Positions 4,339-29,719 of a stretch of DNA of 34,512 nucleotides are shown one piece after another (positions within the stretch are counted from its first letter, which is position 1; the number at the start of each line of letters is the position of its first letter). The stretch is from Bacillota bacterium. GTDB lineage: Bacteria > Bacillota > Sulfobacillia > JAJZYS01 > JAJZLH01. The notes below the pieces were generated by a model. The model searched no databases and was not told the DNA's origin. It saw only the letters and a program-made list of their open reading frames with translations. Position numbers and translations under genes: made by a program. The stretch covers positions 1 to 34,512 of the forward strand of contig JAKAUI010000008.1 in the NCBI GenBank assembly GCA_021827745.1, written 5' to 3'.

Positions 4339-5451
4339 TCATGGTGTCACGCCCTCGTCCATCTGGGTGGCCACAGACCCTGCCAACTGATTGGCGGACA
4401 GCCAGCCCTGATGCCGCCAGCGTACCTTGCCGTTCACTACCAGCATATACTCAGGGCTGCCTATGAGGCTCAAGCCGCCCGCCAGTCTGCCGCCTGGGTC
4501 CATCACCACAGGATAGAGCAGCGGGCGGCCGAGCCGCCCCAAGAATTGAGAGAGTGCAGTGGCGGTGGGTTCGGTTACGGTTTCGTCGACCGCCACCAGA
4601 CTGGGCCAGCCATGTTGGCGTGCCACACTGACGTAGTCGTTCTGGTTGGCCATCGCCGTCGAGAGATTGGTCAGCTCGCTGAGCCAGGTGGCGAAGAACA
4701 GGTAGAGGTGTGCATGACTCCGACCGATTGGCAGGGTCCCACCCTGAGCCAACGGCAGGGCGGCTGACTCCTGGCTCGTGATCGGGGGCACCACGGGCAG
4801 CGCCGGGGTGAGGGCGGGATGGTCAGGCAATGTGGCGGATACCAACTGGGCGATGATTCTCGCCTGGTTCGTCACGGCGGCCTCGTCCATGGTGCTACCT
4901 AGCAGGAAGCGCAAATGGCCGCCTGGGCCGATCACGTAGATGGCGGCGGTGTGGACAACCGCTCCGTGTGAGAGTGCCACGTAGATGCCGTAGGACTTCC
5001 ACACCCGGACCAAGGCAGACCGGGTGCCAGTCACAAACCACCAGCCATAAAGGAGGCCATGGGCGCGAGAATAGGCCTGCACGTCGGCGACAGAGGTGGC
5101 GATCGGATTGGCGTTCACCGCCAATAGCTGCACCTGTCCGGTGGCCGGGCCGAGTAGGCGTGCGGCTTCCACCATCGCCGCTGAGGTAAGCGGGCAAATC
5201 GTGGTGCACTGGGAGTCGACAAAGGCGAGCACCACAGCCTTGCCGCGAAACTGGCGCAGCGAAACTATCTGGCCAAACTGGTCCGTCAGTGTGAAGTCGG
5301 GAGCCCACCGGCCGGAGATGGCGAGCACTCCGGCTGGCGGAGCAGGAGCACCACCGCTACCCAGGATGGATGGCAACAGGACTAGGCGACCACCGAGCAC
5401 CAGCGCGACGCCAACTAGGGCCACCGTTGCCGTCTGTCGCCACCGTCCCAT
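4339..5451 (-). CDS. SCO1/SenC-like copper chaperone with second thioredoxin-fold domain
   Basis: A membrane-anchored thioredoxin-fold protein, 370 residues from the ATG at 5451. One N-terminal membrane helix spans residues 8-27. A SCO domain (45-205) follows, with the copper-binding CxxxC (Cys82, Cys86 in CTTICP) and the conserved His167. SCO proteins load copper into the CuA site of oxidase subunit II, and a CuA subunit II is encoded at 27211. The C-terminal ~140 residues look like a second thioredoxin-like domain (LYLFFATWLSELTNLSTAM), but both redox cysteines expected after the FATW segment are replaced by leucines, so it should be redox-inactive. It is the last gene of the minus-strand cluster downstream of the Crp-type site at 9168. 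An upstream extension of the frame exists but lacks a good ribosome site. Confidence 0.8.
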   Translation of the reverse strand: MGRWRQTATVALVGVALVLGGRLVLLPSILGSGGAPAPPAGVLAISGRWAPDFTLTDQFGQIVSLRQFRGKAVVLAFVDSQCTTICPLTSAAMVEAARLLGPATGQVQLLAVNANPIATSVADVQAYSRAHGLLYGWWFVTGTRSALVRVWKSYGIYVALSHGAVVHTAAIYVIGPGGHLRFLLGSTMDEAAVTNQARIIAQLVSATLPDHPALTPALPVVPPITSQESAALPLAQGGTLPIGRSHAHLYLFFATWLSELTNLSTAMANQNDYVSVARQHGWPSLVAVDETVTEPTATALSQFLGRLGRPLLYPVVMDPGGRLAGGLSLIGSPEYMLVVNGKVRWRHQGWLSANQLAGSVATQMDEGVTP

Positions 5452-5580
5452 ATCGACACCGCCTTCTCGCCGGGGTCTCTGGATCGGTCGTTGGCTCCTT
5501 GGATACCGCTGGTCGGTGGCAGACTGTGCCAGAGGGCTGGCTGCCGACGCCCACCAGCTGACCAACCCAATTCCCAACCT

Positions 5581-5814
5581 TTAGGGTGCCAAGCGGCGGA
5601 TGTGGACCCGCCATACCTCGGGTCCTCGCTCCAAGTACTCCCACTCGAACTTCCCGATCTGTTCCGCCTCGAACTGGTAGTAGAGGGGCAGCGGGTCATG
5701 ATCGTTGATCAGCTCCAGCACGGCGCCGACTTTGATGGCCTGCCAACGTGCGAAGATGGTCTGGTGCTTGTGCACCGGGGCGATGGGCCGGACATCCAAT
5801 GATTCGATTTCCAT
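5581..5814 (-). CDS. DUF2249 single-domain protein
   Basis: A 77-residue protein consisting of one DUF2249 domain: LDVRPI near the N-terminus, HKHQTIFARW, the signature INDHDPLPLYYQFE, and the closing EYLERGPEVWRVHIRR. The ATG at 5814 has a GGAGGT ribosome site. DUF2249 proteins are small SirA/TusA-like folds that recur in denitrification, nitric-oxide and anaerobic-respiration clusters; their biochemical role is not established. It is nearly a copy of the C-terminal domain of the upstream hemerythrin fusion, suggesting duplication. Confidence 0.85.
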   Translation of the reverse strand: MEIESLDVRPIAPVHKHQTIFARWQAIKVGAVLELINDHDPLPLYYQFEAEQIGKFEWEYLERGPEVWRVHIRRLAP

Positions 5815-5946
5815 GGGACACCTCCAGTCTCTGGCCGGGCGCGAAACATCGGAACTCGTCACGTCAGATGAGTTGATCGGCTGATTTCGGGTGGATCTTC
5901 AATGGCTCGTCACCGTCTCCCACCAGGGCCTACAACCAGTCGGAGA

Positions 5947-6678
5947 TCAGACGCCGACGGCCTCGCGGCGTCTGATCTCGACCCGCCAAGCGTCGGGGCC
6001 TTCTTGCAGGTACGTCCAGGACATCTGGTCGCCGTGGGTAGCGTCAAGTTGGTAACGTAGAGGCAACGGGTCGTGGTCCACCTCAATCACCAACGCCTGG
6101 CCGATGGCCAACCGGTCCACCAAAGCAAAGATGGTCGTGTGTCGCATGGTGTGCGGGATGAGTCGCACATCGATGGTCACATCAGCATCTGACAGTGGTG
6201 ATGGCTGGGGAGCCTCCGTCGTCCGATGCATCTCCTCAAGCAGCGCCGTCAGGTTGACTTCGGGCGCGGCCTCTAGGACCGGGAGCAACAGATCGTTTTC
6301 CCGCCCGGCATGAGAACGGAACACCTCCTCGATGGCGCCAGCAGCCCGCATCGCCCTCACCCCCGACGTGGCCGCCTTGAGTTGACCGGTGAGACCCTCG
6401 AGCTGTCCATGCTCTTTCTTCATGTCCTGAACCAGCGCCAAAACGCCGAAGCGCGGCTCCGCCGCCCGGGCGTAAATGGTCTCTTCCTCCCCACGAGCAT
6501 GTGGCAAGATCACCTGGTTGATGTGCTGTACCAAAGAATCACGGCCCGCCGCCATCGGCTCTCCTTGTTCAAGAGTCAAGACGTAGGCATCCACTCGTTG
6601 CGTCAGATCCTCGGCCATTGCCCGGTGGTGGCCTCGGATCCGGTTTGCCGCCTGAGCGTTCATCTTGATCGCATCCAC
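5947..6678 (-). CDS. Hemerythrin (HHE) - DUF2249 fusion protein
   Basis: A 243-residue fusion. Residues ~10-140 are a hemerythrin-like four-helix bundle with the expected diiron ligands: His17/18, His60 and Glu64 (PHARGEEE), His90 (KKEHGQ), His123 and Glu127 (SHAGREND). Residues ~168-240 are a DUF2249 domain (VDHDPLPLRYQLDAT, YLQEGPDAWRVEIRRRE). Related bundles bind O2 or NO and repair or protect Fe-S enzymes under nitrosative stress. The GTG start at 6678 follows an AGGAGG site and overlaps the end of the mrp remnant, so translation was probably coupled to mrp. Confidence 0.85.
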   Translation of the reverse strand: MDAIKMNAQAANRIRGHHRAMAEDLTQRVDAYVLTLEQGEPMAAGRDSLVQHINQVILPHARGEEETIYARAAEPRFGVLALVQDMKKEHGQLEGLTGQLKAATSGVRAMRAAGAIEEVFRSHAGRENDLLLPVLEAAPEVNLTALLEEMHRTTEAPQPSPLSDADVTIDVRLIPHTMRHTTIFALVDRLAIGQALVIEVDHDPLPLRYQLDATHGDQMSWTYLQEGPDAWRVEIRRREAVGV

Positions 6679-7750
6679 AGTGATCCTCCTCCAGCGTCTA
6701 CTTGGATCTGGGTCCGTTCGGTGAGACCTGCCAGCACGGCTCTGGCGAGCTGGCCATGGGCCACCTGGGCGGGACTGCCACAGCGGGTACCTCAGAGTCT
6801 ACAAGGGGCCACGGAATGCGGGCGACCACTGCGGTACCAAGGGCCGTCGCCACCAGATCGCCGCCTTCTCGGCCTAAGGGGATGGGTTCGCTCGCCGCAG
6901 CTTTCGCAGTCCAGATAGGACATCGTCTCCACCACTCCCAGCAGCCGGTGGCCGGTGGTTATCGCCATGCGGCCGGCCCACTCCGCCCCGGGCCGCTCGC
7001 AGGTCGGATACGGTGACCACCAAAGCCTGAGCCCGAGGCAGACTCGCACGCACATCGAAGGCCACATCCTCCGTTCCTGGCGGCATATCAAGCACCATCA
7101 GGTCAGGTGCCTGCCATGCGATCTGGGTGAGCATCTGGCGAAAGGCCTTGCCCAACATCGGGCCGCGCCACATCACCACCTATCCGGGCTTGACGAAGAA
7201 GTCCATCGACATCACCGCCACACCGTGTCGAATAGGTGGGACCAGTTGTCCCGATGCGCTGGCCAGAGGCCCTTGGATACCAGCAGGTCAGCACTCCGTA
7301 GCCGTAGATGTCGCCGTCTAGGAGCGCCGTACGCCAGCCGCATCCTGCCAGGGCGACCGCCAGATTGGTGGCTACGGTCGACTTGCCGACACCTCCCTTG
7401 CCGCTCAGAACCGCCACCACTTGGGTGGTAGGCTGGGCCACCTGCTTCTCCCCACTGCTTGGGCGGGCGAAATTACGCGCCTGGTCGGCCCGTTCCCGAC
7501 TACGGGGACCCACTCGCACCTCTGCCACTGCAGGCAATTGGCGAACCCGCTGACACACCGCCTCTATCCCGACCGCAGGAGGCGGTCCATCGCCCCAGAT
7601 CTGGTCAACGTGAATGGCCACCGACGCGACCTGATCGTGCCATTCGATCACCACATCCTGGATCAGCCCCACCGCCACGGGATAGAGGTCACCGGGCACC
7701 ACTACATCGGCCAGGGCCTGCAGCACGTCCGCCTGACTCAGCCGTCTCAT
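6660..7750 (-). pseudogene. mrp: Mrp/ApbC-type Fe-S carrier ATPase, decayed
   Basis: The gene begins intact at ATG 7750 with the MIP18-like N-terminal domain, followed by the deviant Walker A motif [21 protein letters not shown] and LLDGDIYG. After DIYGYG (about 7290) the frame breaks. The next conserved stretch, [20 protein letters not shown], lies in another frame and meets an in-frame TAG near 7180 just before [17 protein letters not shown]. Further shifts fall near 7020 (then HRLLGVVETMSYLDCESCGERT) and near 6880 (then GGDLVATALGTAVVARIP). The last segment ends at a TGA overlapping the hemerythrin start. Mrp proteins carry Fe-S clusters to target enzymes. At least three frameshifts and one nonsense codon mean no full-length product. 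Operon position and overlaps are preserved on both sides. Confidence 0.85.
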
Positions 7751-9108
7751 GACGACCCCCCTCTGTCCAGGGCGGGCACATGGGACAGCGGTCGATCAAG
7801 CACCGCCCCATGATGGCCTCGCCGAACCCGCCACAACTCCCGACTGATCCCAGCCACCGCGACGAGCGCCAACACCTCTGCCAGATGGAACCAGAAAGGG
7901 CGCGCGAACCCCAGGGACAGGGTCCCCGCACCGACCGAGACGAAGTAGAGGACATAGTAAGGCATGGCCCGGCCCTCGTCGACCAGATCCTGCACCAGAG
8001 GCACTTGCTCTCGCCCCATCCGCCGTCCGTAGCGCTCGATCCAGGTGAGGAACGGCACAATCTTGTAGAGCTGGCTGAGCCCCAGCCCACTCAGCCAGCC
8101 AAAGAGCGCCAGATACACGGCGGAGATGTCCCAGGACGGATCATTCCCAAGCACCCAAGCCACTAACACCAACAGGCTGGTCAATCCCAGGCAGACAAGT
8201 GCCCAGGCTCCAATCCGGGCGTTCAGTTCCAACCGTCGCCGCCGTCTCGATCGATAGAGCCGACGCATGTCGATCAGGTAGAGGATCACACCTGCTCCCG
8301 CTACCCACCAGCCAACCAGGCTCAGTCCGGCAAGCATGGCGCTAGCTACTAGCAGGCCAGCGATGCCGGCCATCCAACCCATTGCCACCCCGGTTGCCGT
8401 CGTCATCCAGGCCGCCTCCCCCAGAGTGCCCCGCTCCTCAGGGGCCAGCATGAACATGGACAGTAGTTTGAGGGTCACCCCCATGGCGGTGAGGGTGAGC
8501 CAGCCGGCGATGCCGGCCAGGATGTGAAACGGCAGCCCGGCCCCAATCAGGGGCGCCAGCGCCTCGGGCAGGAGGCTGGTTGTGCTGATGGCGAGGGCAA
8601 AGGTGAGCCCCAACAGCACCGTCAGCAGGGAGAAGCCAAGGGCACAGGCCACATAGCGGGCCGACAGGGGGAGTGGTCGGGCAGCGAACAAGGTGACACC
8701 CAGGTTGACGATGGCCAGGATGAAGCCGATCACCACGATCCCGCCGCCCACCGGCAGGAGGACTGTGATGATCGGATGGCTCTGTAAGGGACCCCCGAGC
8801 AAGCCGAGGAATCCGACCACCATGCTCCCCAGCCCGCCACCCACCAATCCCAGAGTCCAAGCGGGAAGCGCATTGTGCCACAGTTCCCTGGTGGCGATCA
8901 CTGGTACGAACTGGTGCAGCGCTCCGAGCATCAAGAGCGACATCCAGCCGATGGTGATGAGATGCACAGCCACCAGAGTCAGCGGCGATCCGAGCGTCCC
9001 TGACGTGATCAGGGGGCTGGCCGCCAGCCAGCCCAAGGCCACCATCAGACTGACCAGAGCGGTGGCGAAGTAGCGCATCGACCAAGGTTGGACCTGTACT
9101 CCCAGCAC
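7747..9108 (-). CDS. Polytopic membrane protein, NnrS / heme-copper-oxidase-subunit-I-like
   Basis: About 12 hydrophobic helices with scattered histidines typical of heme-binding membrane proteins ([34 protein letters not shown]) and a cytoplasmic [16 protein letters not shown] loop. NnrS-like and related proteins occur with nitric-oxide and denitrification genes; assignment here is by general resemblance only. The frame opens at a GTG at 9147, but the Crp-type site at 9168-9181 leaves no room for a promoter there. A GTG at 9108 after GGGGGG, or the ATG at 9078, fits better. The stop overlaps mrp by ATGA, making this the first gene of the minus-strand operon. It is a paralogue of the membrane protein split at 18643/22240 (similar HLIT-G and FL-W--...RR-GR segments). 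Confidence 0.75.
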
Positions 9109-9149
9109 ATCCGCCCCCCGATCGCCACTAACTACAGGTATCGTCACTC

Positions 9150-11020: not shown

Positions 11021-11077
11021 CGGAACGGCCACTGATCGGAACCTTGCACAAGCGCCAACTTGTCGCTGGCACCAAGT

Positions 11078-11091
11078 GTGATGCTGATCAC
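11078..11091. promoter_or_regulatory. Crp/Fnr-type operator, GTGA-N6-TCAC
   Basis: GTGA TGCTGA TCAC, centred about 58 bases upstream of the radical SAM gene's GTG start. It sits between the end of tnpB and that gene. Confidence 0.65.
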
Positions 11092-11142
11092 GGCACACCT
11101 GCCCTCCATCCTCCACCCTGGCTGGGCGTGAGGAGGTGCGCC

Positions 11143-12279
11143 GTGCCAGACCGGGACTTCGCGCAGAACCCGTTCATTGTCATTTGGGAGACCACCCGCG
11201 CCTGCCAATTGGCATGCCGCCACTGCCGGGCGGAGGCCATCCGGCACCGTGACCCACGAGAACTCAGGACCGATGAGGCGATCGGGCTGATCGACCAAAT
11301 CGCCGCCTTGGACCACCCCCTCTTTGTACTGACCGGTGGCGATCCGATGGAGCGCGGCGACTTGGTTGATCTGGTCGGCCATGCCCGCCACCAATCTTTG
11401 GTCGTCTCGATCACGCCCAGCGCCACCCCAAAGGTGACGCCTGAGCGCATGTCCGCCCTACGCGATGCTGGACTGGCACACTGGGCGTATAGCATCGACG
11501 GCTCCACGGCCGAGGTGCATGACCGGTTTCGGGGCATCAGGGGCTGTTTCGACCTGACCATGGAACAGATTGCCCAACTCAAGGAGTTGGGCATCCCGCT
11601 GCAGGTGAACACCACGGCCAGTCAATTCAATCTGGCGGATCTGCCGCGCATCGCCGAACTGGTGGATCAGATCGAGGCAGTGCGCTGGAGCGTGTTCTTC
11701 CTCATTCCGACTGGCCGCGCTCGCCTCGCCGATCTTCTATCGCCCCAGCAACACGAAGACGTGCTCAACTGGTTGGTCGATCTGAGTATCAGGGCGCCCT
11801 TCGACATCAAGACCACAGAGGGCCCCCAGTACCGTCGACTACAGGCCGAGCGGGGCGGCCAGAGTGGTGCCTGGTTAAGTGCACGCCGCCAGTTGGGTGG
11901 CGTTAGTAGGAGCGTGGCGCCGGTCTGGGATGGCAATGGCATGGTGTTCGTCGCCCATGATGGCGACGTCTTCCCCAGCGGATTCCTACCTTTGCGACTG
12001 GGCAACATCAGGGAGCGCTCCCTGGCCGAGATCTATCGAGAGTCGCCTGAGATGCAGGTGCTACGGGATCCGGACCGGCTACTCGGCAAGTGCGGATACT
12101 GCGAGTTTCGGCGGGTCTGCGCTGGATCTCGGGCCCGCGCCTACGCCGTAACCGGCAACTTCATGGAAAGCGACCCGTTTTGCCCCTACGTGCCCGACCC
12201 GCGACGCCTTGAGAATGCGGAACTACAGGGAAGTTCCAGGGCCACTACCGGGGATGTCATCCCGACGCTTCCGATCTGA
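11143..12279 (+). CDS. Radical SAM/SPASM protein (NirJ/AhbD-like, TIGR04053-like)
   Basis: A 378-residue radical S-adenosylmethionine enzyme. The CxxxCxxC motif binding the catalytic [4Fe-4S] cluster is Cys21, Cys25, Cys28 (TRACQLACRHCRAE), followed by the GGDP SAM-binding segment (VLTGGDPMERGD). A C-terminal SPASM-type region has GKCGYCEFRRVCAGSRARAYAVTG and a last Cys in DPFCPYVPDP. This arrangement matches a NirJ/AhbD-related family often sitting near heme or respiratory genes; the substrate is not known. The GTG start at 11143 follows AGGAGG with six bases spacing and discards an upstream in-frame ATG that lies before the operator at 11078. Confidence 0.85.
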   Translation: MPDRDFAQNPFIVIWETTRACQLACRHCRAEAIRHRDPRELRTDEAIGLIDQIAALDHPLFVLTGGDPMERGDLVDLVGHARHQSLVVSITPSATPKVTPERMSALRDAGLAHWAYSIDGSTAEVHDRFRGIRGCFDLTMEQIAQLKELGIPLQVNTTASQFNLADLPRIAELVDQIEAVRWSVFFLIPTGRARLADLLSPQQHEDVLNWLVDLSIRAPFDIKTTEGPQYRRLQAERGGQSGAWLSARRQLGGVSRSVAPVWDGNGMVFVAHDGDVFPSGFLPLRLGNIRERSLAEIYRESPEMQVLRDPDRLLGKCGYCEFRRVCAGSRARAYAVTGNFMESDPFCPYVPDPRRLENAELQGSSRATTGDVIPTLPI

Positions 12280-17400: not shown

Positions 17401-17564
17401 GCAAACTCTCCGATGCCGGAAAGCGAGTTGTGGTCTGTGATGGCCAGTGCCTGCTGACCGAGCGACGCTGTCCGCGCGACCAGATCTGCCGCCGAGGAGG
17501 CGCCGTCCAGATGACTGAATGGTCCGTGCAGATCGCAGTCGGCCTGGCGGACCTCTTCGAACAC
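14487..17564 (-). CDS. dnaE2: DnaE2-like error-prone DNA polymerase III alpha, 5' end replaced by IS remnant
   Basis: A C-family DNA polymerase alpha subunit of about 1,026 residues from a GTG at 17564, close to DnaE2 length. In order: PHP domain (HLDGASSAADL, ALAITDHNSLSG), polymerase core with TSGRGSAADSVVAYCLGLT and the metal-binding PDVDLDFD, GQFDKRDCETFGLIKIDLL, GAFQLESPAQR, ALIRPGPIKG, YQEQVLEIA, YGFAEGHAAAFGLTGYRTLYLL, ALLNHQPMGYYPPQTLVTEARRRG, and a C-terminal OB-fold. The segment order and wording fit DnaE2, the SOS mutasome polymerase, better than replicative DnaE. The N-terminus is abnormal: the first ~10 residues and one His of the PHP HxH motif are replaced by sequence from a Tn5-like transposase read in the same frame (DCDLHGPF). 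The fused frame stays open to 17936, so the true start is unknown. Confidence 0.8.
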   Translation of the reverse strand: MFEEVRQADCDLHGPFSHLDGASSAADLVARTASLGQQALAITDHNSLSGIGEFAQACAQAGVRPIIGAEVTVEDPSGVPSHLTLLAPDQVGYRHLSQLISAAHLSRPRGQPMASQDALAVHAPYLIGLSGCRQGEVANHLLAGRWERAEKAASRLMGLFGTGKFFLEQEVCRLPGDRPLQRAIRDLGQHLRLPRVATVNAHYAVDEDFWLHDLLVCIRTKSQVDDLAPGRSMNDWQFIQSEADMVRGLPDDPAAVAMTDRVADMCGRALPDASQLFPAFSLPHGVSSAQVHLRQLTEQGAIWRYGQIGSRLRQRIDEELSVIAQTQFTDYMLAVADIAGWARGTGIRTSGRGSAADSVVAYCLGLTDVDAFARDLPFARFLSLGRTDPPDVDLDFDANRREEVAAHVAMRYGQDHVAAVATYVRLEGRLAIREIGKALGLPAAELGAIAKRVPYYVGADGLREALSRVPELKQLKVATGRLETLLQAAERLADWPRHLGTHLGGLVLTACPVAEVMPLQMAAKGTVVGQFDKRDCETFGLIKIDLLHLRTLSAVDEAITVSQVPWETIPDDDPATFRRLRRAETVGAFQLESPAQRALHRRMKGDRLEDVIAATALIRPGPIKGEMVAPFVRRRLGKEAITYPAPGLEDVLGRTYGVVVYQEQVLEIAVRVAGFSPAEADRLRRTMSRARSKAEMQSLGDVFCTRAVERGVDREAAAEIWQTLLGYASYGFAEGHAAAFGLTGYRTLYLLEHHSAVWYAALLNHQPMGYYPPQTLVTEARRRGIQVRLPDVNQSDPTWTIQDGALSCGLLQVRNMGVEEVGRALAGRPYRTAWDLREKSRLQPATLRQLVMAGALDGLIPNRRQALWQVVGQAAVADLADFTPERRLAQEMAALGLAVSAHPLSFFRPRLERAGVLRTDQVLCAPHRMQAAVAGALVRPHRPPTRSGERVVFLCLEDERGLLDVTVSEAVYRQNADAIFGPDAWLVVVEGTVREVGTGTSLDAQRVMALTAYLGRSYALQMTDG

Positions 17565-17930
17565 CTCGAAGATGTCGCTCTCCCGGTCGCCCACCGCCAC
17601 GACTCTTGTCTTTGGGCCCACGGCCTCCCGGGCCGTCCTCACACCCCGGCTGCAGCGAGCGCTCTCTTTGCCCTGGCCCCTCGTCCCTCTGGCCCAAATC
17701 TCCATGCCGAGAGGCCTTCCGGAACGCCGTCCGTCCGCACGGCAAGCACGGAGTGGAGGAAGAGCCCCCGGGCCCTGTCTTCCGGACCCCCGATCGGGCC
17801 CAGTCCCTCCGCCTCCTTCCGGCCGCTGAAGTTCAGCGTCGTCAGCCGCTGGCCCAGCCGCGCATCGCCGACCGCCGCCCAGCGCGACTCGCGGATCGCC
17901 CAGGTCGTGACGTCGTCCGTAGCAGAGCCC
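17546..17930 (-). pseudogene. Tn5/IS4-family transposase N-terminal remnant fused to dnaE2
   Basis: Read on the minus strand: TWAIRESRWAAVGDARLGQRL is the Tn5-type DNA-binding start. A deletion follows, then TLNFSGRKEAEGLGPIGG and LFLHSVLAVRTDGVPEGL from the region around the first catalytic Asp (itself lost). After a frameshift near 17690, VGPKTRVVAVGDRESDIFEVFEEVRQADCDL includes the GDRE-DI motif of the second catalytic Asp. The last segment is in frame with the polymerase and joins it at about 17546. Confidence 0.75.
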
Positions 17931-18040
17931 CCTCAAGACCGCATCACCCGTTGCTTCGCGGCCTCCCGGGAATCTCCTCCCCCCAGATCATGTCAGGTAG
18001 GCGGCATAGGGGCAGTGCTCAGTCCGTTGATGCCCGAGGT

Positions 18041-18127: not shown

Positions 18128-18646
18128 TTGTGGCTTCGTTCGATCGTGCTCTACATCCACATCCTGGCCGCCATCTTCTGGGTCGGCGAAATGCTCTTCC
18201 TATCGACGGTGGTGAGACCTTACAGTCGCCGACTCGAGCCCCGTGAGCGCACCGAACTTTTCACCGCTCTAGGACAGCACAGCAGGCCCTGGGCATGGGG
18301 TGCAATGGTGGTGCTAGTGGTCACCGGGCTACTCAACGTCACGCTGGCTGGCATCCCGCTCACATCCTTGGTCGATCCGCACTTTTACCGGACGCCACTC
18401 GGCGCGACGTTGGACCTGAAGGTGCTGCTCGTGATTGCCATGATCGCGGTCGCCCTGTGGCATGACAGCCTGGTCGGTACGCGGGCTGCACGTCTGCGGG
18501 GCAGGCTGGCCGACCACCCCAAAGACCCTGCTCTGACCGCCGCTGTGGCGCACACCCGCCGGATGGCGTCCTGGCTTGGGCGGATGGCATTGTTGCTCGC
18601 GCTGGTGGTGGTCTTCTTGGCGGTCCACCTGGCTCTTTACCTTTGA
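18128..18646 (+). CDS. CopD/DUF4149-like four-helix membrane protein
   Basis: About 172 residues with four membrane helices: VLYIHILAAIFWVGEMLFL at the start, then GAMVVLVVTGLLNV, DLKVLLVIAMIAVALWHD, and MALLLALVVVFLAVHLALYL at the end. The first-helix His and W-x-G pattern (HILAAIFWVGE) is typical of the CopD / copper-resistance membrane superfamily. Such proteins are linked to copper or heme handling at the membrane. Two TTG codons (18116, 18128) are possible starts near GGGAAAGG; I chose 18128 without certainty. The much longer open frame upstream is antisense to the transposase remnant and not real. The stop overlaps the next start by TTGA. Confidence 0.7.
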   Translation: MWLRSIVLYIHILAAIFWVGEMLFLSTVVRPYSRRLEPRERTELFTALGQHSRPWAWGAMVVLVVTGLLNVTLAGIPLTSLVDPHFYRTPLGATLDLKVLLVIAMIAVALWHDSLVGTRAARLRGRLADHPKDPALTAAVAHTRRMASWLGRMALLLALVVVFLAVHLALYL

Positions 18647-19467
18647 TCACGCCTGTATCAGCTAAGCGAGTCGCCATTGTTCATCCTACTCAGACGCCCC
18701 CCGGTATCTGGGTGCTGGCGACTTTTCAGCTGACCACCCTTACCCTGCTCGCGATCGCCGCCTCTTGCCTGGTGATCGGTGGTCTTTCTTTTCCTCTCTC
18801 CGCTTTGGGCCTGATGACGCTACATCTGATCACCACCGGTCTCCTGGTACCGACCACCCTGGCTGCAGCCGTGCAGTTGACCCTTGCCCTGCGCCAGGCA
18901 CCGCCGCCTGCCGCCGCTGGCGGCTGGCAGTGGTTGCCTCTGGTCTGGCTCGCCGGCAACCTGCTCCCCTTCGGCTTCCTGGTCGGACCTTGGCTGCTCG
19001 CCGCCTCGGGGGCAAGTCTCTTGATCGCCGCCACAGCAGTCGCTTGGCGACTATTGCCACTTCTGGCCAACGGCAGGGGACTGGGCCCGGCACTGCGACT
19101 GGGGCTCGCAATCGGGGTGATGGGCAATGTGTTGGTACTGGCCAGCGGCAGCCTGCTCGCCTTATCTTTGGCTGGCCTGCCGACCGCTCTGGCCAGGGTG
19201 GGGCTACACCTCACCCTGGCTCTTGGCTTCGCTTATGTGCCACTTCTGATCGGGGTCAGCGGTCAACTCTTCCCCATGTTCGGCCACCTCTCGCCAGACC
19301 GTCGGCCAGACATCCGCACTGGCCTCGTGGCAACCGTTGCCGTGGGTGGCCTGGTGACCGCTGGGGCGAGCCTTTTGGGTGGGCCTGCCTGGCGAGACGC
19401 CGGTGCGGTGGTCGTAGCTCTGGCGATCGCTGGCTGGGTAGCTCGTCAGGAGATACTAAGGAGTCAC
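18643..19467 (+). pseudogene. Split membrane protein, 5' part
   Basis: The N-terminal ~275 residues of a polytopic membrane protein starting at a TTG that overlaps the CopD-like stop. About eight hydrophobic helices are visible, including LGLMTLHLITTGLLVPTTLAAAVQL, which matches the HLITIGW region of the membrane protein at 7747-9108. The frame runs into the insertion element after ...RQEILRSH and stops shortly after. The rest of the gene resumes at 21767. Compared with its paralogue it has lost the His of the LGALHQF segment. Confidence 0.75.
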
Positions 19468-21766
19468 AACCGATCAAGGTAGGGCGGGTTGACAAGACCG
19501 GGACGGGATTGTACTGTAGGGTCGGGGTGGTAGGCCACGGCCTGGCGATGGGATCCGCCGTTCTGGATCGGGGACCGGCTGTTCAGCGAAGCAGATCTTG
19601 ATCTGATCCGCTGGACGGCCGATCGCTTTTCGGGCCTGAGCCGGATGGAGTTGGCCTTCACCATCTGCGAGAACCTGCCCTGGAGGGCGCCGAACGGGCA
19701 GTTGCGCGTGCACGAGTGTCTGCCGCTGCTGGAACAGCTGGCGGCAGCTGGGCTGATCAAGGTCCCTGCGAAGCGGACGCACGCGGTCCAGCGACCCGCC
19801 CGGGTGCAGTCAGAGCCTCTGGCCGTGAGGGAGATCGAGGCGAGTCTCAACGAGTTGCAGCCGGTCACGGTGGAGCCGGTGCTGGCCGATGAGCGGGCCC
19901 GATGGGACGCGACGCTGGCGAAGTACCACCCCCTGGGGTTCCAGCGCGCGTTTGGCGCCCATCAGCGCTACTGGATTCGCGGTGATCTCGCTGGCCAGCC
20001 GGTGATCCTCGGTGGCCTGCTGTTCGCAGCAGCAGCGAGAAACGTGGCCGTACGCGACGTCTGGCTGGGGTGGACGGGCCAGCAGCAGCAGCGCTTCCGC
20101 CACCGGATCGTGGCCAACAGCCGTTTTCTCATCCTGCCCGGCGTGCAGGTGCCGCACCTGGCGAGCCACGCGCTCGCTCTGGCCCTCGGACGCCTGCCAG
20201 GCGACTGGCAGGCGCGGTACGGCTACCGGCCCGTGGTGGTCGAGACGTTCGTGGTGCCGCCCTGGCGGGGGACCTGCTACCGGGCAGCGAACTGGCTGCA
20301 TCTGGGACAGACGACGGGCCAAGGCCGGCAGGATCGGCGGTATGCCGAGGGGGGCTTGGTGCGGGAGGTCTTCGCCTATCCCCTGGTGCGGGACTGGCGG
20401 CAGGCCCTGGTGGCGGAGGGGGTAGCGCCAGCCCAGGCAGATGCGACGACGGAGCGCGACCCGCTGGCTCCGGAGGCAGGAGGCGATGGGGTGATCACCG
20501 CCGAGCAGAAGCTGAACGAGATGACCGAGGAGCGGATCAAGCAGCGCTTCGAGGCGATGGCGCCCTTTCTGGACGAGCGGCAGAGACGGCTGTTCGCCGC
20601 GGCGGAAGCCGTGGCCCACGGGGCTGGCGGTCAGACGCGCGTCGCGAGGCTTTTGCACATGTCGACGGCGACGGTGGCGCGCGGAATGGAGGAACTGCAA
20701 GATCCCCAGGCGCCGCAGATGGAGCGTGTCCGCAAGCCTGGTGGCGGTCGCAAGCGGACCGTGGAGAACGACCCCACCCTGAGAGAGGACTTGGAGCGGC
20801 TGGTGGATCCCGCAACCCGCGGCGAGCCGGACTCGCCCCTGCGCTGGACGGCCAAGAGCGCACGCACACTCTCGGCCGAGCTCAACGAGACGGGCCATAC
20901 CACCAGCGAGCACCTGGTCCGTGATCTCTTGCACGAGATGGGCTACAGCCTGCAGGCCAACCGCAAGGCCCTGGAGGGCGGTGAGACGGGCGCCGAGCGC
21001 AAGGATCGCGACGCCCAGTTCCAACACATCAACCAGCGCGTCAAGGAGTGTCAGGCACAAGGCCAGCCAGCCATTTCAGTAGACACCAAGAAGAAGGAAC
21101 TCATCGGCCCTTACAAGAACGCCGGCCGGGAGTGGCAACCCAAGGGGCGGCCCGAGCAGGTCAAGGTACACGATTTCATCGACCCCGAGCTGGGCAAGGT
21201 CGCCCCCTACGGCGTGTACGATCTCACCCAAAACAACGCCTGGGTCAGCGTCGGCACCGATCACGACACCGCCGCCTTCGCCGTGGCGAGCATCCGCACC
21301 TGGTGGCAGACGATGGGCCAGGAAGCCCATCTCGGGGCCAGCCGCCTGCTCATCACCGCCGACTCCGGCGGCAGCAACGGTGCCCGCAACCGCCTCTGGA
21401 AGGTTCAGCTGCAGGCGCTCGCTGACGAGACCGGACTCGAGATTGCTGTCTGCCACTTCCCGCCAGGAACCAGCAAGTGGAACCGAATAGAGCATCGGCT
21501 CTTCAGTTTCATCACTCAGAACTGGCGCGGCCGTCCCCTGGTCAGCCACGAGGTGGTCGTCAACCTCATTGCCAACACGACTACCCGCACCGGCCTCAAG
21601 GTGCGGGCCGGCCTCGATACCCACGTTTACCCCACCGGCACCAAGGTCTCCGACGAGGAACTGGCTGCTGTCAACCTGTCCAGAGATGCTTCCCACGGAG
21701 CGTGGAACTACACCATCCGTCCCCGTCAGCAAAAGTTAGGTTGATTTGTTGTGTCCCCTAATCACC
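19468..21766 (+). mobile_element. ISAzo13-like insertion with DruA-transposase fusion
   Basis: The borders are inferred from where the membrane-protein frame is lost and regained. A CAC occurs at both edges (19465-19467 and 21767-21769) and could be a 3-bp target duplication that restores the frame. I do not see convincing terminal inverted repeats: the right edge has a TTAGGGGACACAACAAATC-type end on the complement, and the left edge has only a loose match. It carries a single gene. Confidence 0.65.
19645..21744 (+). CDS. DruA (DUF4338) - ISAzo13 transposase fusion protein
   Basis: One 699-residue protein joining two families. Residues ~1-280 match the DUF4338/DruA domain of Druantia anti-phage systems: YHPLGFQRAFGAHQRYWI, RDVWLGWT, ANSRFLILPGVQVPHLASHAL, LPGDWQARYGYRPVVVETFV, RGTCYRAANW and the G-T-GR-DR tail. 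Residues ~300-699 are an ISAzo13/Rhodopirellula-type DDE transposase: a helix-turn-helix region (TRVARLLHMSTATVARGMEEL), then catalytic Asp in AISVDTKKKELIG, Asp in LLITADSGGSN, and Glu in SKWNRIEHRLFSFI. DUF4338 similarity (FSEADLDLIRWTADRFSGLSR) continues upstream of the ATG at 19645 to about 19579 without any ATG/GTG/TTG, so the 5' end may be damaged or use an unusual start. It interrupts a membrane-protein gene. Confidence 0.85.
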   Translation: MELAFTICENLPWRAPNGQLRVHECLPLLEQLAAAGLIKVPAKRTHAVQRPARVQSEPLAVREIEASLNELQPVTVEPVLADERARWDATLAKYHPLGFQRAFGAHQRYWIRGDLAGQPVILGGLLFAAAARNVAVRDVWLGWTGQQQQRFRHRIVANSRFLILPGVQVPHLASHALALALGRLPGDWQARYGYRPVVVETFVVPPWRGTCYRAANWLHLGQTTGQGRQDRRYAEGGLVREVFAYPLVRDWRQALVAEGVAPAQADATTERDPLAPEAGGDGVITAEQKLNEMTEERIKQRFEAMAPFLDERQRRLFAAAEAVAHGAGGQTRVARLLHMSTATVARGMEELQDPQAPQMERVRKPGGGRKRTVENDPTLREDLERLVDPATRGEPDSPLRWTAKSARTLSAELNETGHTTSEHLVRDLLHEMGYSLQANRKALEGGETGAERKDRDAQFQHINQRVKECQAQGQPAISVDTKKKELIGPYKNAGREWQPKGRPEQVKVHDFIDPELGKVAPYGVYDLTQNNAWVSVGTDHDTAAFAVASIRTWWQTMGQEAHLGASRLLITADSGGSNGARNRLWKVQLQALADETGLEIAVCHFPPGTSKWNRIEHRLFSFITQNWRGRPLVSHEVVVNLIANTTTRTGLKVRAGLDTHVYPTGTKVSDEELAAVNLSRDASHGAWNYTIRPRQQKLG

Positions 21767-22240
21767 CACGGTCGCGGTCAACCGCTTGATCCGGTGGCAC
21801 AGGGTGCTCGACTGGCCAGCCTGTCGTTGGCTCTTGCGGCCCTGGTGACGGCAACCTCGCTCCTGATCGGGGGGTCTGCCTCCGGCCTCTTGCCCGCCGC
21901 ACTAGCATTTGGCCTGACGTCCGGATTGGTCGGCTCGATCTTGTCCTACGGACGACGGATCAGCGCCTTTCTGGCCTGGCACACCCTGTTCAGGCGATTC
22001 GGTCGGACCGACTTCATCCCTAAGCTTGATCGACTGCGTCCCCCCATCTCCGGTCTGTGGGCTCCCTTCACTTGGACAGCGGGCAGCCTCAGCCTGGCGG
22101 TGTCTCTCTGGCATCCATTCCTCTGGTCGCTTGCCCTCTTGGCCACTGGTTCCCTTCTGTACGCCCTAGAGATGGGGTGGGGCGCTTTCAAGATTCTCCG
22201 CCTCTGGCGCCACCACCGTCGGGATCCCTATGTCAGTTGA
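21767..22240 (+). pseudogene. Split membrane protein, 3' part
   Basis: The continuation of the gene that starts at 18643: GRGQPLDPVAQGARLASLSLALAAL, three to four more hydrophobic helices, and the loop FLAWHTLFRRFGRTDFIPKLDRL. That loop aligns with [20 protein letters not shown] of the intact paralogue at 7747-9108. Together the two parts give about 430 residues, similar to the paralogue. The 3' part alone has no good start codon or ribosome site. Confidence 0.75.
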
Positions 22241-22343: not shown

Positions 22344-22619
22344 ATGCCGTACGTGATCACCGAGGCCTGCATCGGGGTGAAGGATGCTGCCTGTGTCGAC
22401 GTGTGCCCGGTAGACTGCATCCACCCCACCCCAGCCGAGGCCGGGTTCGCCGCCATCGACCAGCTGTACATCGACCCCCTGTCCTGCATCGACTGTGGTG
22501 CCTGCCAGGTGGTCTGCCCAGTGAGTGCCATCTTTCCCGAGGACGAGGTACCGGCGCATCTGACCCCGTATATTGAGAAAAATCGGGTCTATTACGAGCA
22601 GGGCAGCAATACGGCGTAG
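22344..22619 (+). CDS. fdxA: FdxA-type 4Fe-4S ferredoxin
   Basis: A 91-residue ferredoxin closely following the FdxA pattern: MPYVITEACIGVKDAACVDVCPVDCIHP, then a second cluster motif CIDCGACQVVCPVSAIFPEDEVP and a C-terminal tail ending with IEKNRVYYE. The Cys arrangement fits a seven-iron or two-[4Fe-4S] ferredoxin, a soluble low-potential electron carrier. A GAGGAGG site lies 10 bases before the ATG. It is followed after 52 bases by the Crp/Fnr gene and its own promoter carries the operator that this regulator probably reads. Confidence 0.9.
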   Translation: MPYVITEACIGVKDAACVDVCPVDCIHPTPAEAGFAAIDQLYIDPLSCIDCGACQVVCPVSAIFPEDEVPAHLTPYIEKNRVYYEQGSNTA

Positions 22620-22671: not shown

Positions 22672-23340
22672 GTGCGCCGTTTCCCGCTGCTCCAGCATCT
22701 CGGCGACGCCGAGGCGGAACAATTGGCCAGCCGATTGTTCCGGCATCAGATGGAACGCGGGGTCGTCTTGTTCCACCAAGACGACCCCGCGGACCATCTG
22801 GTATTCATTGCCGCCGGTCAGGTGAAACTCGAACGCACGTCGTCCAGTGGTGTCGTGTCGATCGTCGAAGTGCTGGGGGCCGGCAATGTGTTGGCGGCGG
22901 CCAACTTTCTGGCGCTGGAGCCCTATCCGGTGACGGCTGTAGTTCTATCCCCGGTCGACTCATGGACGCTCTCTTACCGCGACTTCGAGATCGCCGTACA
23001 CAGGAACCCCGAGATCTCCCTAGCCCTTCTCCGCTATGTCGCCACCCGGCTCCACCGGGCTTATGCCAGGCCTCCGGGCGTGCAGCGCAGCGAGGTACGA
23101 TTGGCCAATGCGCTGGTCCGCATCGCTCAGGACGGAAGAGGCGACTCCGGCGAGGCGATCATCGTCGGCCTGTCCCACGAAGATCTGTCCCAGATGGCAG
23201 GAATGGCCCGCGAAACCGCCACCCGTCACTTGGCCAGATGGCAGAAGGATGGGTTGGTGCAACTCCATCCACGCTCAATCCAGGTCCTAGACCTCAACGG
23301 GTTGCGCCACATCGGGCAGGTGGACGGTCTCCCCTACTAG
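22672..23340 (+). CDS. Crp/Fnr-family transcription regulator
   Basis: A 222-residue regulator with an N-terminal cyclic-nucleotide-binding-type beta barrel (GVVLFHQDDPADHLVFIAAGQVKLERT), a long dimer helix, and a C-terminal winged helix. The recognition helix reads MARETATRHLARWQ: Arg180, Glu181 and Arg185 are the three residues with which E. coli CRP reads GTGA. There is no cysteine, so it is not an Fe-S sensor like FNR; a heme- or NO-sensing DNR/NNR-type or ligand-sensing protein is possible. The start is taken as GTG 22672, although the ribosome site GAGGAG abuts it closely. It is the likely reader of the nine GTGA-N6-TCAC sites in this window. Confidence 0.88.
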   Translation: MRRFPLLQHLGDAEAEQLASRLFRHQMERGVVLFHQDDPADHLVFIAAGQVKLERTSSSGVVSIVEVLGAGNVLAAANFLALEPYPVTAVVLSPVDSWTLSYRDFEIAVHRNPEISLALLRYVATRLHRAYARPPGVQRSEVRLANALVRIAQDGRGDSGEAIIVGLSHEDLSQMAGMARETATRHLARWQKDGLVQLHPRSIQVLDLNGLRHIGQVDGLPY

Positions 23341-26074: not shown

Positions 26075-26371
26075 TCAGTCCCACCCGAAATAATGTTTGG
26101 CATCGTCGCTCATCATGTCCGACGCCCACGGAGGATTCCAAACCACCGCCACGTTCACGCTCTGGACTCCGTCCATACCCAGGATGCGCTGCCGCACCCC
26201 TTCCTCGATATAGGAAGCGGCCGGGCAACCAGGTGTGGTCATGGTCATGGTAACGCCAACTCGACCATCGTCCACCACCACGCCATAGATGAGTCCGATG
26301 TCAACGATGTTGTAGCCGAGCTCTGGATCGTAGACGTCTTTCAAGGCCTCTCGCACCTCGTCTGGGGTCAC
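26075..26371 (-). CDS. DUF59/MIP18-family protein (PaaD/SufT-like)
   Basis: A 98-residue MIP18-type protein: EVREALKDVYDPELGYNIVDIGLIYG at the start, the VTMTMTTPGCPAASYIEEGVRQRI segment with the conserved reactive Cys, and VVWNPPWASDMMSDDAKHYFGWD at the end. Such proteins help deliver Fe-S clusters (SufT, PaaD, CIA2). The same domain forms the N-terminus of the broken Mrp at 6660-7750, so this may be the surviving Fe-S maturation factor of the system. The GTG start overlaps the stop of the upstream DUF2249 gene by GTGA. Confidence 0.88.
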   Translation of the reverse strand: MTPDEVREALKDVYDPELGYNIVDIGLIYGVVVDDGRVGVTMTMTTPGCPAASYIEEGVRQRILGMDGVQSVNVAVVWNPPWASDMMSDDAKHYFGWD

Positions 26372-26910
26372 TTGGCGGTCTCTCCCCGACGGATCCGCAC
26401 GTACACCCCATCCGGCTGCCGTTCGACCCGGATGGTATGACCGCGGGCCTCCAGTTCCGGGTACAAAAACAGAGGATCTCGCTCATTGATCGCCAGTAAG
26501 ACCTGACCCGGGGTCATCACCTCCAGCGTCTGCAGGATCTGCATCATCGGTTCCGGTGGCAGCAGTCCCCTGTTATCGAGGTGAACAGCCGGATCCGGCC
26601 AGTCATTCTCTGATCTTGAGTCGGGCCATGCGCCAACTGGTCCGGGTGGCAGAGAAGTCTGCTCCTCGTCCTCCGCGCGCGGTGCGAACAGAATTTCCCA
26701 GTCCTCAGTTCCGATCTGGTGGGCCGTGTGGTCAAACCCCTTGCTGGCCATTACCCGATACAGGGGAATCGGCTCAAAGGTAGCCAGCAGGCGGAACGAG
26801 GACCCCGCTCCAATCTCTCCTACGGCGGCCATGATGCGAGAAAACGGCTCCCGCCCCATCCTGAGGTCGTCTCGCACGTCGAGGGTGATCACCGGCATCG
26901 GGTCCGACAT
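26368..26910 (-). CDS. Tandem DUF2249 protein
   Basis: A 180-residue protein with two DUF2249-like domains joined by an acidic linker. Domain 1 (~6-85) has ITLDVRDDLRMGREPFSRIM, LATFEPIPLYRVMASKGFDH and EDWEILFAPR. Domain 2 (~105-178) has LDNRGLLPPEPMMQILQTLEVM, INERDPLFLYPELEARGHTI and GVYVRIRRG. I take ATG 26910 with GGGGGAGA upstream rather than the earlier in-frame start. It diverges from the oxidase-type operon across a region with three Crp-type sites and is co-translated with DUF59. The function is unknown; such pairs accompany denitrification-type loci. Confidence 0.8.
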   Translation of the reverse strand: MSDPMPVITLDVRDDLRMGREPFSRIMAAVGEIGAGSSFRLLATFEPIPLYRVMASKGFDHTAHQIGTEDWEILFAPRAEDEEQTSLPPGPVGAWPDSRSENDWPDPAVHLDNRGLLPPEPMMQILQTLEVMTPGQVLLAINERDPLFLYPELEARGHTIRVERQPDGVYVRIRRGETAK

Positions 26911-26943
26911 GACATTCTCCCCCACTTTATGCACTCCACTATG

Positions 26944-27210: not shown

Positions 27211-27789
27211 ATGGGCATGGTTCCGATCGCTGGAAAGCAACTGGTGATCCTGGTGCTTTGGCTGGCGCTGTCAACCATCGTCGTCATTGCCTTCTCTTGG
27301 GTGGTCTCCAGCACTAAGAGGCCCGTGCCGGTTGGCGATGTGCAACCCGGTGGATATCGGCTGCGCCGCCTCTGGGGCTGGTTCTACGGAACACTCCTCG
27401 TGGCCGCGTTCGCCGTTACGCTGTGGACGGTCCCTTACGCTTGGGCGCAGGGCTCCACCGGCAAACCTGCGCTGGTGGTTCACGTCTACGCCCACCAGTT
27501 CGCTTTCACAATGCCCAAGAAGTTGCCGTCGGGAACCCGGATCGAGTTCCTGGTCACCTCTTTGGACGTCAATCACGACATGGGCATCTACAGCCCCCAG
27601 GGCGAGTTGCTCGGTCAGGTACAGGCGATGCCGGACTACACCAACGTCTTCTTCTTCACCTTCCCTAAGCCGGGCAGATACGTCATTCGTTGCCTTGAGC
27701 TCTGCGGTGCTGGCCATTCATATATGTTCCAGCCGCTTCAGGTGTACGCGCCGGCCCCGGCCAGCACCCTGGGCGGAAGGAGTGCCTAG
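27211..27789 (+). CDS. Heme-copper oxidase/NO-reductase subunit II with CuA site
   Basis: A 192-residue subunit II. Two membrane helices (about 9-31 and 56-77) precede a periplasmic cupredoxin domain. All CuA ligands are present: His122 (VNHDMG), Cys161, Cys165, His169 and Met172 (CLELCGAGHSYM). CuA accepts electrons from a c-type cytochrome or small copper protein and passes them to the hemes of subunit I, encoded immediately downstream. The SCO-like protein at 4339-5451 would supply its copper. Two ATG codons (27211, 27217) follow a G-rich ribosome site. First gene of the operon under the operator at 27100. Confidence 0.88.
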   Translation: MGMVPIAGKQLVILVLWLALSTIVVIAFSWVVSSTKRPVPVGDVQPGGYRLRRLWGWFYGTLLVAAFAVTLWTVPYAWAQGSTGKPALVVHVYAHQFAFTMPKKLPSGTRIEFLVTSLDVNHDMGIYSPQGELLGQVQAMPDYTNVFFFTFPKPGRYVIRCLELCGAGHSYMFQPLQVYAPAPASTLGGRSA

Positions 27790-27791
27790 GC

Positions 27792-29276
27792 GTGCCAACT
27801 GAGCAGATGGGGGCCGTCGATCTGCATGGCGGCGACGTGGGCGTGACTCCTAGGTGGATGGTGGGCGTCAGTCTGGTGATCGGGTTCGGCCTCATCTTCT
27901 TCTTGGGCATGGTCGGCGGCGTAATGAAGGCGGCCCAGGGAAACCTGGTCCATTTGTCTCCCAGCACCTTCTACGCGCTGCTCACCCTGCACGGTGACGG
28001 CATGATCTCCACCGTTGTGTTACTGACCGCAGTCGCCCACTGGTACTTCCTGCGACGCCTGCTCAACCTGCGGGTAGAGGTGCTGGTGTTCGCTGTGCTG
28101 GCCATCGTCTGGGGCCTGGTGGCAGCTGCCGTCGCGATCTTGATCGGCGGTTTCGGGCCTGGATGGACATTCCTCTACCCACTTCCCTTCATTGGCAACA
28201 CGTGGCCGGTGTGGTCGACCGGCCTGTTCTTTTTCGGTGTGCTGTTCGTCGGTATTGGCTTCGCCATCTTCTGTCTCGACATCTTGGCCGGGATTATCCG
28301 CGAGTATGGCGTCTTGAATGGGTTGGCACTGGACACCATCTTTCCTCGCTTGCGCCGAGCAGATGGCAAGGTGGCTCCACCGACCGTGATCGCCGCCACC
28401 ATGGTCTCCATCGACGGCATCCTGACTGCCGCTGCCGGTACTGTCTTGGTGGTCGATCTGCTGGCCCACTGGGCGATGCCCCACTTCCCGGTCGACCCCT
28501 TGTGGATCAAGAACCTAACCTACTTCTTCGGACACACCATCGCCAACTTGACCATCTATCTGTCTGCCGGCGTCATCTATGCCGCCCTCCCCCACTACAC
28601 CGGCCGCCCCTGGCACACCAACCGGGTCTACGCCATCTCCTGGACGACATCGCTCTTGTTTGTGCCCTGGGCTTGGCCACACCATCTGTACATGGATTTT
28701 GTCCAGGCCCCGTGGCTGCAGATCTTCGGTGAAGCCTCCACCTACATTGCCACCATCCCGGCGGCGGTGGTCACCATCTTCGGAGCCTTGCTGTTAGTCT
28801 ACCGATCCGAGATGCGGTGGCGGATCGGGTCCACCTTTTTCATGGCCGGTCTCCTGGGCTGGTTGGTGGGCGGCGTGGCGGCCATGATCGACGCCACCAT
28901 CCCGTTCAACGAGGTGCTGCACAATACTCTGTGGGTGCCCGCCCATTTCCACACCTATCTCTTGGGCGGCGTGTTCTTGTTCGTGATCGGCTTTGCGTCC
29001 TACTTCGCGGGGGATGATGCACCCCCCACGCGGCTGACCAAGACGTTCGAGTGGGTCTTCTTCATCGGGATGATCGGTTTCCTCGCCATGTTCTACGCAG
29101 GGGGGATCGAGGGCGTACCCCGCCGGGAGGCCGTGCAGCCCGTTCCGGGACCGCTTCTGGCAGTGATCGGCACCGCCTTCGCAGCGGTCTTGCTCATCGG
29201 CATGACGGGCTTGCTGATCGAGATCTTCCGCCGAGGCCAGCGCAACGGTGCGACCCATGAGAGGGAAGTGACATGA
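27792..29276 (+). CDS. Heme-copper oxidase superfamily subunit I lacking the active-site Tyr (NO reductase candidate)
   Basis: A 494-residue, ~12-helix catalytic subunit of B-family (ba3-like) type. Low-spin heme ligands are His67 (LTLHGDG) and His387. The high-spin heme ligand is His385 (WVPAHFHTYLLGG). CuB ligands are His248 (FFGHTIAN) and His297/His298 (PWAWPHH). In oxygen reductases of the A and B families the residue four after the first CuB His is the Tyr cross-linked to it; here it is Asn252. Loss of this Tyr is a hallmark of nitric-oxide reductases within the superfamily, including CuA-type and NorSY-type enzymes. GTG start with GGAAGGAG upstream. The stop overlaps the next gene by ATGA. 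The NO-reductase call is inference. Confidence 0.85.
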   Translation: MPTEQMGAVDLHGGDVGVTPRWMVGVSLVIGFGLIFFLGMVGGVMKAAQGNLVHLSPSTFYALLTLHGDGMISTVVLLTAVAHWYFLRRLLNLRVEVLVFAVLAIVWGLVAAAVAILIGGFGPGWTFLYPLPFIGNTWPVWSTGLFFFGVLFVGIGFAIFCLDILAGIIREYGVLNGLALDTIFPRLRRADGKVAPPTVIAATMVSIDGILTAAAGTVLVVDLLAHWAMPHFPVDPLWIKNLTYFFGHTIANLTIYLSAGVIYAALPHYTGRPWHTNRVYAISWTTSLLFVPWAWPHHLYMDFVQAPWLQIFGEASTYIATIPAAVVTIFGALLLVYRSEMRWRIGSTFFMAGLLGWLVGGVAAMIDATIPFNEVLHNTLWVPAHFHTYLLGGVFLFVIGFASYFAGDDAPPTRLTKTFEWVFFIGMIGFLAMFYAGGIEGVPRREAVQPVPGPLLAVIGTAFAAVLLIGMTGLLIEIFRRGQRNGATHEREVT

Positions 29277-29719
29277 CCGCCTTGCAACGGCGCTGGCCAT
29301 TACCAGTGGGACTGGCCGTGGCCGCCTTGGTGTTCGGGCCGCTTTTCACCGGGCCGAGCGTCCCGCCGCTTCTCATCCACCACATGGAGCACAGCCTGAT
29401 CCTGCTGCTCGCCGGGCTGCTCGGCATCGCCTATGCCCGCCGTCACCCGCGCCTCTATGGGGATCCGACCTGGTTGCTGGGTGTGATCGTCCTGGCCACC
29501 TTCTCGGTGGTGCTGATGCTGCCGGACATCTATTCTCAGGTCGACGCCTATCCAGTCCTACACACTTTGCTCCACCTCGGCTTTGTGACCGTTGGCTACT
29601 TCGGCGGCTACATGGCCGAGCGCTACTCGCCGCGAGCCGGGACCGCCTGGACCATGCTGGTGGTAATGATGGGCGTGATCACCGCCAGCGGCTTCGGTGC
29701 CCCGCCTCCACATGTCTAG
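29273..29719 (+). CDS. Small four-helix membrane protein of the oxidase-type operon
   Basis: A 148-residue protein with about four hydrophobic segments and histidines placed at helix starts (LLIHHMEHSLILLLAGLLGIAY, YPVLHTLLHLGFVTVGYFGGY, TMLVVMMGVITASGFG). I do not recognise a named family. Position and coupling (ATGA overlap with subunit I) suggest an accessory or assembly subunit of the heme-copper complex, perhaps heme- or copper-binding through its His clusters. Confidence 0.7.
   Translation: MTALQRRWPLPVGLAVAALVFGPLFTGPSVPPLLIHHMEHSLILLLAGLLGIAYARRHPRLYGDPTWLLGVIVLATFSVVLMLPDIYSQVDAYPVLHTLLHLGFVTVGYFGGYMAERYSPRAGTAWTMLVVMMGVITASGFGAPPPHV

Follow-up and report, generated by a model that had tools for sequence, protein, structure and literature searches.

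NO reductases make N2O, a greenhouse gas. The purified NO reductase of Bacillus azotoformans (qCuANOR) has asparagine at the position of the cross-linked tyrosine of oxygen reductases (PMC3475470). The type II qCuANOR of B. azotoformans and Geobacillus (BAZO_04695-04710) comprises a 493-amino-acid subunit I with 12 transmembrane (TM) helices and the same asparagine, a CuA subunit that has two such helices, a protein with 4-5 of them, and SenC (PMC3475470). Another type, eNOR, has been characterised biochemically (PMC11388526). For sNOR, Table A4 of PMC8756737 lists "N" and names Silicibacter, and sNOR has been placed with the B-family enzymes (PMC11388526). In Ruegeria (Silicibacter) pomeroyi, the cluster SPO_RS20760-20755-20750 encodes a CuA protein, subunit I, and an SCO protein, and is followed by genes for a hypothetical protein and a formate/nitrite transporter. 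We found no report in the literature of an sNOR that had been purified and assayed, so we infer the NO reductase function of these enzymes.

We analyzed a 34,512-nucleotide stretch of DNA (the window) from an uncultured Bacillota bacterium whose genome assembly is 1.62 Mb and 97% complete. These are the features of the window that bear on the enzyme:

27211..27789, + strand: CuA subunit II, 192 amino acids (COX2, E = 3.5e-7), a cupredoxin with intact CuA ligands
27792..29276, + strand: heme-copper subunit I, 494 amino acids, GTG start, intact open reading frame (Pfam COX1, E = 5.3e-50)
29273..29719, + strand: TM148, a His-rich protein of 148 amino acids and five helices, directly downstream of subunit I, weakly similar to Caa3_CtaG
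26368..26934, - strand: double-DUF2249 protein (PF10006, E = 5.3e-35), divergent from the putative NO reductase genes
26075..26371, - strand: DUF59/MIP18-type Fe-S assembly protein (PF01883, E = 2.9e-22)
22672..23340, + strand: Crp/Fnr-family regulator (HTH_Crp_2 and cNMP_binding)
22344..22619, + strand: ferredoxin, adjoining the Crp/Fnr regulator, a pairing that is kept in relatives
7747..9147, - strand: membrane protein with multiple TM helices and no Pfam assignment, found beside the reductase genes in some relatives
5947..6678, - strand: hemerythrin-DUF2249 protein (PF01814 and PF10006)
5584..5898, - strand: single DUF2249 protein (PF10006, E = 5.1e-28)
4339..5577, - strand: SCO1/SenC protein (PF02630, E = 1.4e-15), about 20-22 kb from subunit I

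We propose that 27211-29719 probably encodes a CuA-containing NO reductase of the sNOR group, whose members have asparagine at the cross-link position.

Subunit I has the fold and the six histidines of the heme-copper oxidase superfamily, to which it belongs. Alignment to A- and B-type enzymes identifies His67 and His387 as the ligands of the low-spin heme, His385 as the ligand of the high-spin heme, and His248, His297, and His298 as the CuB ligands. An AlphaFold model has 12 TM helices (pLDDT 89, pTM 0.90) and superimposes on cytochrome oxidases over 457 residues (Z 38.8, rmsd 2.8). All six histidines, which had been noted as present in an earlier reading of the sequence alone (the sequence-only reading), are invariant in 57 aligned sequences, as are Asn252, Tyr256 (one helical turn below Asn252), Tyr263, and His377.

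The cross-linked tyrosine of oxygen reductases, four residues after the first CuB histidine, is replaced by Asn252 (codon 28545-28547, within FFGHTIANLTIY). In an alignment with reference enzymes, this position is tyrosine in all of the A- and B-type oxygen reductases that we compared (8 A-type and 6 B-type), glutamine in five eNOR-type proteins (one of them from a plasmid of Thermus thermophilus), and asparagine in the window's protein, its relatives, R. pomeroyi, and Thermomicrobium roseum. A profile alignment also places the family's asparagine over the tyrosine in the Thermus ba3 motif GHPIVY (PDB 1ehk). Furthermore, asparagine is found in a second copy of subunit I on another contig of the same genome (C57; 89% identical), in six relatives from the same order (56-78% identical), and in 80 of 80 loci taken from 467 candidates, which rules out a sequencing or assembly error, or chance, as the source of Asn252. 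The substitution noticed in the sequence-only reading is therefore confirmed by both alignments, by the second copy, and by every locus sampled. An A- or B-family oxygen reductase is excluded by Asn252, as tyrosine would be expected there.

In cbb3 (C-family) oxygen reductases, the alternative tyrosine lies six residues before the CuB histidine pair; this position matches the sequence FYIQNGPHH of locus L145. The corresponding residue of subunit I is Val291, and the aligned family members do not have tyrosine there either, which excludes a C-family enzyme. The K-channel of ba3 (Tyr248, Thr312, Tyr244, Ser309, and Thr315) is only partly kept: Tyr248 corresponds to Tyr263, and Thr312 corresponds to Thr328, a match that hinges on a one-residue gap. 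In the alignment, the window's subunit I has no counterparts of Tyr244, Ser309, or Thr315.

The best NCBIfam models for subunit I are oxidase subunits I, with scores far below their cut-offs; a standard annotation pipeline would thus label the protein a cytochrome c oxidase or give it no name. Profile scores put Thermus ba3 (81.4 bits) slightly ahead of human aa3 (78.7 bits). Searches with Foldseek and VIA-align for a PDB structure that would identify the subfamily listed A-type oxidases for the most part and could not tell the subfamilies apart.

We built a maximum-likelihood tree of 56 proteins, including the reference enzymes, and it contained four clean groups: proteins with asparagine, A-type with tyrosine, B-type with tyrosine, and eNOR with glutamine. 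The asparagine proteins form a single clade (support 100/100) that includes SPO_RS20755 of R. pomeroyi, which rules out a placement of the window's protein among the tyrosine-bearing oxygen reductases. The eNOR proteins form a separate clade (100/100) beside the B-type enzymes; this and the presence of asparagine instead of glutamine exclude eNOR. Taking R. pomeroyi as the sNOR reference, the window's enzyme is, on its position in the tree, a member of the sNOR group. Because it shares a single clade with the Ruegeria sNOR, apart from the tyrosine and glutamine groups, it is most likely an NO reductase. The proposal in the sequence-only reading of a candidate CuA-type NO reductase agrees with this placement, and one of the outcomes that would have spoken against it, a position among the tyrosine-bearing enzymes, did not arise. 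The "B-family" label in the same reading stands less firmly. When the tree is rooted on the C-family enzymes, the best-scoring topology joins the asparagine group to the B family (support 74/46), but neither a union of the asparagine group with A (p-AU = 0.365) nor one of A with B (p-AU = 0.37) could be rejected. Our trees neither confirm nor refute the published placement of sNOR with the B family.

In 81 of 82 loci, the gene for subunit II immediately precedes that for subunit I, and the CuA ligands (His122, Cys161, Cys165, His169, and Met172) are conserved in 85-86 of 86 homologues. The N-terminal membrane part has one clear TM helix and a weaker second one.

On the other side of subunit I lies TM148. 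We identified homologues of TM148 in 62 of 84 loci: 55 are directly downstream of subunit I and 7 are fused to its C terminus (in Actinomycetota and one Burkholderiales). Five histidines (His36, His37, His40, His97, and His101) and Met82 are invariant across 45 TM148 sequences, and the structural model has five TM helices (pLDDT 93). TM148 had no clear match in Pfam or the PDB. The Pfam family that most of the matching members hit is Caa3_CtaG, which is tentatively a CuB-insertion factor with conserved histidines (PMC9145763); the hits are weak (7 of 45 sequences, best E = 2.1e-5), and the pairwise hhalign probability is 12%.

The TM148-bearing subclade that contains the window comprises 61 loci and has a single origin. 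Among the 68 loci with enough sequence, an SCO gene lies within 3 kb in 0 of 50 loci with TM148 versus 17 of 18 others. Treated as a count, this gives p = 4e-15 (Fisher's exact test), but because the tree shows a single change in TM148, the exclusion amounts to one evolutionary contrast and the p-value is not independent evidence. The exchange of SCO for TM148 is a single replacement event. The sequence-only reading had likened the locus to norSY-senC, and that likeness fails at this point: the gene beside subunit I encodes TM148 and not SCO/senC, so this is not a canonical norSY-senC locus. Similarly, contig C57 encodes an SCO homologue that is not adjacent to the second copy of subunit I.

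TM148 is probably a third subunit or a copper-insertion factor. It may have taken over copper delivery from SCO, or it may be a metal-binding subunit. More tentatively, and with somewhat less than even confidence, we suggest that asparagine-type enzymes have two architectures, and that in the one seen here a dedicated protein with five helices and five histidines, either a shrunken relative of CtaG or a metal-binding third subunit, has replaced the SCO copper chaperone and can even be fused to the catalytic subunit. In that case, a widespread NO reductase, whose lineage may not descend from B-type oxidases, would have in TM148 a component for metal delivery or electron transfer that has not been described before.

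The immediate neighbors of subunit I are the genes for CuA, TM148, the double-DUF2249 protein, and the DUF59 protein. Of the accompanying genes that the sequence-only reading had named, CuA and DUF2249 are indeed beside subunit I, but the SCO gene (4339-5577) and the hemerythrin gene (5947-6678), although present in the window, are about 20 kb away. Loci with TM148 often adjoin genes for DUF2249 proteins, DUF59, and Crp/Fnr regulators, and homologues of the window's Crp/Fnr regulator are found in 23 sNOR-type loci. In one relative (G004), a hemerythrin-DUF2249 protein, CuA, subunit I, TM148, a membrane protein, a double-DUF2249 protein, and DUF59 are encoded in this order on one strand, and a ferredoxin gene and a Crp/Fnr gene are divergent from them. 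In Haloferax mediterranei, DUF2249 genes near nirK and nor are induced together with these genes under denitrifying conditions, and in Thermus such genes have been associated with the respiration of nitrate (PMC11218638, PMC6282519). All five of the DUF2249 matches in the window's genome are on the two contigs that encode the enzyme. However, DUF2249 genes also occur in several relatives that lack the enzyme, which weakens the value of DUF2249 as a marker for it.

Several other observations concern this neighborhood. Ten Crp/Fnr regulators encoded beside the reductase have an N-terminal DUF2249 (L025:4123-5166, L026:9832-10824, and eight similar loci); it is possible that this fusion is a direct sensor. 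Another recurrent neighbor of the reductases is a multi-TM protein that matches nothing in Pfam (7747-9147 in the window, L182:2956-4557, and L025:5663-6859); it may represent a new family of membrane proteins related to NO. A genome from the same genus that lacks the reductase (G002, contig C74, locus L181) keeps the block of CopD, membrane protein, ferredoxin, and Crp/Fnr genes and of DUF59, DUF2249, and hemerythrin genes. At 18259-22231 of the window, a gene for a membrane protein, uninterrupted in G002 (L181:3736-5397), is split by a transposase gene of the ISAzo13 type (19645-21744; PF07592), whose product is DruA-like in its N-terminal part. A resolvase gene and an IS605 OrfB-type gene (9150-10378; an IS607-like element) separate the SCO/hemerythrin block from the other genes. 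The window also encodes a Radical SAM/SPASM protein (11044-12279; TIGR04053) that is related to heme-synthesis enzymes such as AhbD and NirJ, and, within 14487-17936, a DNA polymerase III alpha-type protein (PHP, DNA_pol3_alpha, and finger domains).

Among 398 sampled genomes from the phylum, subunit I was found only in the window's genome and in one relative from the same order, and two genomes from the same genus do not have the gene. In a scan of contigs from one genome collection, the 467 candidate loci are spread over many phyla. In the window's genome, the region 2321-11466 of L093 (G000:C57) has the second copy and, after it on the same strand, genes of complex I. The first of these encodes a NuoBCD fusion, which we recognized by Pfam; NuoE, F, G, and I, which we recognized by eye, come next. 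We did not find any membrane subunits of complex I on contig C57. The second copy's place at the head of a run of complex I genes suggests that it is used in respiration.

If the window's enzyme is an NO reductase, then a periplasmic donor would deliver electrons to the CuA of subunit II, and they would pass via the low-spin heme (His67/His387) to the site formed by the high-spin heme (His385) and CuB (His248/His297/His298), where two NO would be joined to form N2O. Asn252 stands where oxygen reductases have the His-Tyr cross-link for splitting O2. We infer both the main substrate, NO, and this electron path. The genome encodes one A-type oxidase with a normal GHPEVY motif (including the tyrosine), so the window's enzyme is not needed for respiring O2. 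The best NirK match in the genome is below the cut-off (29.6 versus 296.3 bits) and we did not find NirS there. There is thus no obvious internal source of NO, which favors detoxification of NO over denitrification. The likeliest role would be detoxifying or respiring NO from outside the cell, under control linked to Crp/Fnr and DUF2249.

Against reading this enzyme as an NO reductase, the genome has no evident NO source of its own, G002 has the DUF2249/Crp block without the enzyme, all three CuB histidines are kept, and Tyr256 is invariant. These residues could fit a high-affinity oxygen reductase that lacks the His-Tyr cross-link, that uses another donor residue such as Tyr256, and for which NO is a side reaction. 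All of the CuB ligands and CuA are retained, Tyr256 and Tyr263 are both invariant, and the sNOR of Nitrosomonas has been proposed to be a high-affinity oxidase, as it is induced by O2 limitation (PMC6967387). Nevertheless, we consider an oxygen reductase unlikely: every tyrosine-bearing oxygen reductase groups elsewhere in the tree, the cbb3-style position is not tyrosine, an A-type oxidase with the tyrosine is already present, and the neighboring genes are linked to denitrification.

A CuB site with asparagine could also permit both substrates, and NO reduction under micro-oxic conditions has been discussed for the related bNOR and eNOR (PMC11388526). A dual enzyme, tolerant of O2 and able to remove NO under micro-oxic conditions, seems less probable still, as the genome gives no direct evidence for it and a sequence does not reveal the range of substrates. 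It is very improbable that the enzyme is bNOR (the CuA-Nor of B. azotoformans) instead of a member of the sNOR group: both have the asparagine and CuA, but bNOR's subunit I has about 560 amino acids and 13 TM helices and is accompanied by a 46-amino-acid peptide (PMC3475470), while the window's has 494 amino acids and 12 TM helices, a distinction that we draw from the published description. An NO reductase of the sNOR group remains our preferred explanation.

The sNOR group was already known; what we add is a distinct subclade with TM148. Enzymes of the sNOR type commonly bear the annotation cytochrome c oxidase, and a simple rule, GH-x-x-x-N in subunit I with an adjoining TM148 or SCO gene, tells their loci apart from those of oxygen reductases. 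The Bacillota gene pair is now placed, and TM148 is a concrete candidate for a third component. The compact three-gene cassettes make it possible to test whether an asparagine site acts on NO, O2, or both.

Compared with known systems, the window's enzyme shares the fold and the six histidines with the ba3-type (B-family) and A-family oxygen reductases, but they have tyrosine at the cross-link position and fall in separate clades. The heme-copper NO reductase eNOR resembles the window's enzyme in having a cupredoxin subunit and a replaced tyrosine, but the replacement is glutamine and not asparagine, and eNOR forms its own 100/100 clade. Type II qCuANOR fits the window by its description (12 TM helices in subunit I and a partner with five); in contrast to the window, the genes for its SenC and subunit I are linked. 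We likened the norSY-senC genes of Nitrosomonas to the window from their description in the literature. The Ruegeria sNOR resembles the window's enzyme in its asparagine, its six histidines, the CuA gene directly upstream, and membership in the same 100/100 clade, but SCO/senC is directly downstream of subunit I, where the window has TM148 and its SCO gene is about 22 kb away. Finally, for the sNOR of Ca. Methylomirabilis (Damo_0801-0802; PMC6094997), the Methylomirabilis-type loci L047, L049, and L051 fall within the window's asparagine clade, and L049 appears to be the orthologue of Damo_0801. These loci are about 42% identical to the window's, and L047, L048, and L049 carry TM148, as the window does.
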